This document shows, one piece after another, positions 45,273-46,621 of a stretch of 64,000 bases of DNA. Location: positions 1 to 64,000 of the forward strand of contig JAOUFJ010000003.1 of NCBI GenBank assembly GCA_029858255.1. The letters are read 5' to 3'. This DNA comes from a candidate division WOR-3 bacterium. Lineage in GTDB: Bacteria > Hydrothermota > Tepidihabitantia > SM23-42. The translations under genes and the position numbers were made by a program. Every line of letters begins with the position of its first letter. Position 1 is the stretch's first letter. Below the pieces are notes generated by a model. That model was not told the DNA's origin. It saw only the letters and a program-made list of their open reading frames with translations, and made no database searches.

Positions 45273-45725
45273 TCAGTAGATAATACTGGCAGATCTGAGA
45301 ACCAGAATTATTATCGTTGTGTACACTGCGGCCATGAGGTCATCGAGCATGATCCCCCAACCTCCCCCGAGTTTCTCAATGTATTTCAAAGGCGGCGGCT
45401 TCAAGATATCAAAAACCCTGAATAGCACAAAAGTAATTGCGAGTGGCACTATTCGCAGCGGCGTGAAGTAAAGAGGAAGAAGAATGCAGGTGTACTCATC
45501 AATGACTACACGACGCGGATCCTTACCCCAATTTTTTTCGAGGTCGCCAGAGACAATCACCCCGATGATAAAGAGCGCCGATGCAACGATAATGTAGCCA
45601 ATCTCACTGATATGGAGAAGATACCATATGAGAACGCCAAGAAAACAGGAAAGCGTTCCAGGGGCAACTGGAGAGTATCCCAGTAAGAATCCGGTTGCGA
45701 ATAATGTCTTTAGATACTTCGTTAT
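45273..45725 (-). CDS. pgpA: Phosphatidylglycerophosphatase A with no standard start codon
   Basis: PgpA (about 150 aa) dephosphorylates phosphatidylglycerol phosphate at the inner membrane. Its N-terminal motif TGFLLGYSPVAPGTLSC, DEYTCILLPL and FRVFDILKPPPLKYIE are family hallmarks. The frame is closed upstream by a stop, and between that stop and the conserved motif there is no ATG, GTG or TTG. The best candidate is ATA 45725, which overlaps the secF stop and follows AGAAGAAGAA. A first standard codon appears only at 45560 and would delete the conserved N-terminus. Confidence 0.85.
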   Translation of the reverse strand: MTKYLKTLFATGFLLGYSPVAPGTLSCFLGVLIWYLLHISEIGYIIVASALFIIGVIVSGDLEKNWGKDPRRVVIDEYTCILLPLYFTPLRIVPLAITFVLFRVFDILKPPPLKYIEKLGGGWGIMLDDLMAAVYTTIIILVLRSASIIY

Positions 45726-46621
45726 TTCTTCTTCTTAGGAAACTTTTCTTCCCAAACGGATACAATGTTAGCCAGGATGAATATCGATGAGTACGTTCCG
45801 ATCAGGAAGCCGACCAATAGCGTGAAAGCAAAGTCAGCGATGACAGACCCTCCAAATAGCAGCAGGGCGATGACCGCCAGCAGTGTCGTTCCTACGGTCA
45901 GAATCGTACGAGAGAGAGTCTCATTCAACCCCGTGTTCAAGACCACATTATAGGGTTCGCGTCGCATCTTGCTGTATTTCTCTCTTATCCGGTCTGAGAT
46001 GACTATCGAGTCGTTTATCGAATATCCGATTATCGTAAGCAGCGCACCTACCACGACAATTGAGAACTCACGCTGGGTGAGCACGAGCACGCCGACAGTG
46101 AAAACTGCATCATGGAACAGAGCGATAACCGCCGCCGCGCCAAATCGGTAGTCAAATCTGAACGAAACATAGATGAGGATCAACACCAGTGCAATCACGA
46201 CAGCCCAGATTGTTTTTGTGAGCAACTCTTTGCCGATCTTTGGTTCCACGGTCTCTTCGCGCAGAAATTCCTTCTTTATATCGGGGAAATCCTCGACGAG
46301 CGCGTCCTTGACAGTACTGGCGAATTCTTCTGGATTTTCACCCGCGGCCCTGATAATGTATTCCGTGTCCTGCACACCGAGTGCCTGGATCTGTGCATTT
46401 CCCCTGCCGATTCTGGCAAGTGCATCTCTCAGTTCGGCAGTGGATACAGGACTTTCGAATCTGACCTGCAGTAAAGCACCGCCCGTGAAGTCAATGCCGA
46501 AGTTAGGCCCCTTGATGAAAATCAGGAGGAACGAAATTGCAATGACAACCGCCGAAAAAATAAAACCGAATTTTCTCTTACCGATGAAATCGATATTGGA
46601 GTTTCGTACTATTTCAATCAT
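45722..46621 (-). CDS. secF: Protein translocase subunit SecF
   Basis: A 299-aa, six-helix RND-type subunit: the N-terminal helix is followed by KGPNFGIDFTGGALLQVRF, then a periplasmic domain, then GYSINDSIVISDRIREKY and NETLSRTILTVGTTLLAV. With SecD it uses proton motive force to pull exported proteins through SecYEG. It lies 2 nt after secD and is coupled to pgpA. Confidence 0.97.
   Translation of the reverse strand: MIEIVRNSNIDFIGKRKFGFIFSAVVIAISFLLIFIKGPNFGIDFTGGALLQVRFESPVSTAELRDALARIGRGNAQIQALGVQDTEYIIRAAGENPEEFASTVKDALVEDFPDIKKEFLREETVEPKIGKELLTKTIWAVVIALVLILIYVSFRFDYRFGAAAVIALFHDAVFTVGVLVLTQREFSIVVVGALLTIIGYSINDSIVISDRIREKYSKMRREPYNVVLNTGLNETLSRTILTVGTTLLAVIALLLFGGSVIADFAFTLLVGFLIGTYSSIFILANIVSVWEEKFPKKKK

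Follow-up and report, generated by a model that had tools for sequence, protein, structure and literature searches.

In the candidate division WOR-3 genome examined here, and in the family to which it belongs, the gene pgpA very probably begins at a conserved AUH start codon, AUA at positions 45725-45723, most likely by way of ribosomes that finish translating secF at its overlapping UAA stop. The window, which is the whole 64,000-nucleotide stretch of DNA that was analysed, lies in a 2.7 Mb assembly (G000 in the comparisons below), and the features on which the argument depends are as follows.

45273..45725, minus strand: pgpA reading frame, opening at the proposed ATA and closing with TGA, with a match to PF04608.
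45723..45725, minus strand: proposed pgpA start codon ATA, overlapping the secF stop (ATAA).
45722..45724, minus strand: secF stop codon TAA, with two bases in common with the ATA.
45722..46621, minus strand: secF, the gene upstream of pgpA (TIGR00966, E 1e-89; PF02355).
45726..45737, minus strand: A-rich lysine tail of secF, read as TAA GAA GAA GAA in the pgpA frame.
45737-45735, minus strand: in-frame stop TAA upstream of the pgpA ATA, evident in sequence and translation.
45753..45755, minus strand: TTG in the pgpA frame at a conserved secF Trp codon (NTG GGA), blocked by the TAA at 45737.
45558..45560, minus strand: first canonical in-frame start, GTG, inside pgpA and after the conserved motif TGFLLGYSPVAPGT.

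The secF gene ends AAG AAG AAG AAA TAA, and pgpA is in the -1 frame relative to it, where the junction reads TCC TAA GAA GAA GAA ATA ACG AAG TAT CTA AAG ACA TTA TTC GCA ACC GGA. From the TAA at 45737-45735 to the motif TGFLLGYSPVAPGT, the pgpA frame contains neither ATG nor GTG nor TTG. The protein read from the ATA matches PF04608 (PgpA) over residues 9-143 with E 4e-37; the score of 127.7 bits stands against a cut-off of 28, and profile positions 2-140 of 141 are covered. Against the NCBIfam equivalog PRK11068 the product scores 72.5 bits, short of the 226-bit cut-off. A first-pass annotation had held that pgpA lacks a standard start before an intact conserved N-terminus, which is borne out, the first such codon being the GTG at 45560. 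The same annotation had pointed to a AGAAGAAGAA tract ahead of the ATA. The tract is present, but it is a poor Shine-Dalgarno sequence; since it directly abuts the ATA, it is not usable as one. No strong Shine-Dalgarno sequence precedes the pgpA ATA, and the A-rich AAGAAGAAGAA runs right up to it. A well-spaced Shine-Dalgarno sequence is customary at AUH starts, though not a defining feature of those that are translationally coupled.

Homologues of pgpA were found in 61/61 genomes searched. The closer comparison covers the 23 genomes of the family (f1), within an order of 27 genomes and including a genus of eight members. In all 23 family genomes secF and pgpA adjoin one another with pgpA in the -1 frame, so that comparison of the junction among relatives returns the same arrangement throughout; it is likewise present in the two nearest relatives among the contigs searched, the candidate division WOR-3 bacterium GenBank records CP070686.1 and CP070802.1, whose junction sequences are those of G003 and G007, their apparent counterparts. 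The overlap codon is ATA in 22/23 and GTA in the remaining genome, G012, giving 4-nt stop/start overlaps of ATAA or ATAG in 22 cases and GTAA in one. In every family member except G009, which has a TTG two codons ahead of the motif, the stretch from the secF stop to the motif is free of canonical starts. ATA and motif lie 8, 9 or 12 codons apart, owing to small in-frame insertions or deletions, and the overlap has thus been kept despite them. At the aligned position in the sister family, ATG occurs in G023 and G024 and ATA in G026, and a GTG is present upstream in frame; for pgpA, a possible AUA/AUG interchange is thus confined to comparisons between the families and within the sister family. 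A GGGAA/TTTCC inverted repeat is also found in the secF tail (window 45738-45753, minus strand), paired in 14/14 aligned junctions. As a conserved GGGAA/UUUCC hairpin element it was rejected, there being no compensatory changes and the pattern being accounted for by the protein.

Starts of this type are not confined to pgpA. Among 166 genes on contig C3 conserved between G000 and its relative G003, 21 were flagged and judged by eye, and three (pgpA, yceD and larE) have no canonical start before a conserved N-terminus that looks coding. Differences between the two genomes upstream of the first canonical start are biased towards the third codon position, falling at positions 1/2/3 as 10/6/25 in pgpA, 7/4/14 in yceD and 2/4/9 in larE. 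The two further G000 genes lie outside the window.

C3:122499-121969, minus strand: yceD, with an ATA start 8 nt after AAGGAG.
C3:68950-69726, plus strand: larE, with no canonical start and an AUH codon instead.

The strongest of the further AUH cases is yceD. In 25 copies from 23 of the 27 genomes of the order, a Shine-Dalgarno sequence is properly spaced in every copy, and AAGGAG is followed after 8 nt by ATA in 24, with ATG at the identical position in G007. In every copy the next base is A or G, giving an overlap of ATAA or ATAG, or ATGA in G007; G000 and G003 are the genomes in which the upstream stop itself was checked for this overlap. The earlier view of ATA 45725 as the likely initiator of pgpA gains support from this AUA/AUG interchange in yceD, as it does from the presence of ATA in 22/23 family members. 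Beyond the order, 32/33 yceD loci have ATG, GTG or TTG in the homologous stretch. Within family f5, yceD has ATA in G052 where two relatives have ATG, and an ATT lies two codons upstream in all three. The single-contig genome G004 carries a second yceD copy beside a run of N (G004:C1:258364), which may be an assembly join.

The aspS case emerged from its Shine-Dalgarno sequence in G003 rather than from the gene census. Across the 27 genomes of the order the aspS start is ATC in 14, ATT in nine, ATA in three and ATG in one (G025), and it is ATG at 7/7 loci in family f4; family f6 was left out, its best match being a different and shorter aspartyl-tRNA synthetase. For yceD and aspS together, nearly every relative examined outside the order has a canonical start at the homologous place. 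The aspS matches in G004, G002 and G020 contain an in-frame TGA. infC, located in 24/27 genomes of the order, starts with ATT in 22 and ATC in two; a Shine-Dalgarno sequence is visible in most, and in most the start follows AAGGAGGTG. The AUH start of larE is the least certain: its Shine-Dalgarno sequence is weak, and the codon is ATA in five, ATT in two and ATC in one of the eight members of the genus.

Several other accounts of the junction were weighed. It is unlikely that pgpA starts instead at the NTG ten codons upstream, which is mostly CTG and coincides with the secF Trp codon. In other families of the class this is an ATG or GTG site (ATG in G027; ATG or GTG before GGA, in frame, in several f6 genomes), and on that sequence comparison it was likely the ancestral pgpA start site of the class. 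The frame from this site is open in 17/23 family genomes (CTG in 14, TTG in three), which may therefore use it, and its use would account for the GTA of G012. Relatives with a clear start elsewhere would speak for such a site, and the case they make is weak: G007, G015 and G019 do have TTG there, but in six others, this genome included, a TAA blocks the frame. The codon is CTG in 15/23, no Shine-Dalgarno sequence is apparent, and the blocking CCT codon, found in 1/15 genomes outside the genus against a use of 22%, shows no significant avoidance.

A programmed -1 frameshift in the secF lysine tail, by which pgpA would be made as a SecF-PgpA fusion with no start of its own, had been offered by the first-pass annotation as an alternative, and is improbable. 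The constant -1 frame (23/23) and the A-rich tail speak for such a mechanism, as does an AAA AAA TAR ending of the tail in most genomes beyond the genus, which could let the tRNA of the final Lys codon shift back one base. There is no common slippery site, however: this genome has AAG AAG AAG AAA TAA, G001 and G005 have AAG AAG AGA AAA before TAR, and G008 has AAA AGG AAA AGA before TAA. When 14 of the 23 family junctions were folded to a consensus, no notable stem was predicted downstream, and in six genomes the in-frame stop leaves only four codons in which a slip could occur. With neither a conserved slippery site nor a stimulator, read-through fits the junction badly, and it leaves yceD, aspS, infC and larE unexplained. 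A base error, the other alternative put forward earlier, is excluded because the same junction without a canonical start occurs in 23/23 family genomes, as it does in CP070686.1 and CP070802.1. Although an ordinary ATGA overlap is only one base away, the chance that sequencing or assembly error, or decay of pgpA, lies behind the ATA is negligible, the protein being under constraint and matching PgpA over its length. A-to-I editing of the AUA was also considered and dropped, because it would destroy the secF stop in the eight genomes that use TAG.

Initiation at the overlapping AUA thus remains the favoured reading, and a mechanism can be proposed for it. AUH codons (AUU, AUC and AUA) are discriminated against by IF3. 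From the 4-nt overlap, we infer that ribosomes finishing secF would reinitiate at the AUA with the fMet initiator tRNA. The third-base mismatch would make initiation inefficient, and IF3 would be expected to lower it further. With AUA among the codons that IF3 disfavours, each secF termination would therefore yield little pgpA product. By analogy with other such starts, the pgpA start may be both low in output and sensitive to IF3. AUG is one base change away and yet absent from the family, so the low output may be one that the bacteria maintain. Its retention in nearly all the related genomes examined, together with the similar starts of other genes, makes the pgpA AUA look like deliberate low-level control.

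The choice of AUA among AUH codons follows a pattern. Starts with no need to overlap a stop use AUU, AUC or AUA (infC, aspS and larE), whereas the stop-overlapping starts of pgpA and yceD use only AUA. A start that overlaps TAA or TAG is limited to AUA because AUU and AUC would turn TAR into TTR and TCR, so that the pgpA AUA looks like the sole AUH codon the overlap permits rather than a quirk of AUA itself. Part of the reason for an ATA at this place is simply that secF ends in AAA TAR, which counts against the AUA reading. The GTA of G012 falls outside the AUH rule; it may be a relative of the GTC/GTT starts of sigR type, or G012 may use the CTG ten codons upstream.

The secF stop codon bears on whether AUG has been avoided. 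In the family it is TAA in 15 genomes and TAG in eight, and TGA in none (n=23). On a SecF plus PgpA protein tree, seven TAA/TAG changes were counted (6-8 on bootstrap), of which the starred branches force at least five. A single base change would give ATGA, with a valid TGA stop for secF, and this is seen in 0/23. In the G000 sample 78 of 173 stop codons (45%) are TGA, and stops in conserved genes exchange between TAA and TGA at least as often as between TAA and TAG (28 vs 19 for G000-G003; 27 vs 27 for G003-G004). These stop codons modestly suggest that AUG is avoided at the pgpA junction in the family, the argument being modest because the changes are few (5-8).

Comparable starts are known elsewhere. 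infC has an AUH-type start in E. coli and Streptomyces, according to one study (PMC5472188). The infC of E. coli, Streptomyces and S. aureus, with AUU, AUC or AUA and autoregulation by IF3, has in common with pgpA a conserved AUH start; it differs in its strong Shine-Dalgarno sequence and in a product that acts on its own start, neither of which applies to pgpA, and the pgpA start, for its part, overlaps a stop codon. The AUA starts of S. aureus ccpN and citZ use the same codon as pgpA, and that of ccpN is conserved and lowers expression; in poor medium, expression from AUA and AUU starts was about 10% of that from AUG, and the ccpN start reached up to 30% in rich medium (PMC13009471). As described there, ccpN has extended Shine-Dalgarno pairing, which pgpA lacks, and the genes are different ones; in its strong Shine-Dalgarno sequence it is yceD that resembles ccpN (PMC13009471). 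The sigR gene of Streptomyces is similar to pgpA in that a non-canonical start is conserved across relatives, in that case a genus: GTC in 32/34 species and GTT in the other two (PMC5472188). Its GTC start is reported to be repressed by IF3, with over-production of the protein when a canonical start is substituted; GUC and GUU are not AUA, and make only a loose precedent for the GTA of G012 (PMC5472188). Termination-reinitiation pairs have the -4 geometry seen at pgpA, with ATGA and GTGA as the usual overlaps and the only two named in the passages concerned (PMC10666635), in place of which ATAA or ATAG is found here.

The kind of control proposed here is already known; the genes involved and the ATAR overlap appear to be new. 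The literature searched on pgpA and aspS yielded no report of a non-canonical start codon for either, and a search for work on WOR-3 start codons found nothing on the subject; for AUA starts in bacteria, the relevant study is the S. aureus one (PMC13009471). To our knowledge, starts other than AUG, GUG and UUG have mostly been isolated cases so far; in this bacterial order a number of housekeeping genes retain them over long divergence, and overlap with TAA or TAG explains the AUA in two of these (pgpA and yceD). Tentatively, and with more doubt than confidence, it might be suggested that the order has a small IF3-gated set of AUH starts (infC, aspS and yceD, with pgpA in one family and larE in one genus) through which tRNA charging, rRNA maturation and phospholipid synthesis are linked to how much IF3 is present or to its state, the AUAR overlap being a new form of AUGA coupling. 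If so, the genes with AUH starts would respond jointly to IF3. Gene callers limited to ATG, GTG and TTG would miss or shorten such genes.

AUH starts are rare, at about 1-2% of compared genes, as there is no general excess of ATA and a census extended to 381 G003 genes with homologues in the sampled stretches gave only pgpA, larE and yceD. In stretches of four genomes, ATA after Shine-Dalgarno motifs showed no excess over ordinary codons (12/534 in G003 and 14/494 in G004), and AUA as a general start codon was rejected on that basis. A single-genome scan of coding potential for more such genes added nothing certain, and two further genes flagged in the census were set aside, an ATG lying shortly downstream. 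Among -4 overlaps in the G000 sample, 25 are canonical (16 ATGA, four GTGA and five TTGA), and the non-canonical ones belong to pgpA (ATAA) and yceD (ATAG). One open reading frame in G004 (G004:C1:968882) lacks a canonical start around its N-terminal part; it resembles release factor 2, and is presumably the well-known programmed frameshift gene.
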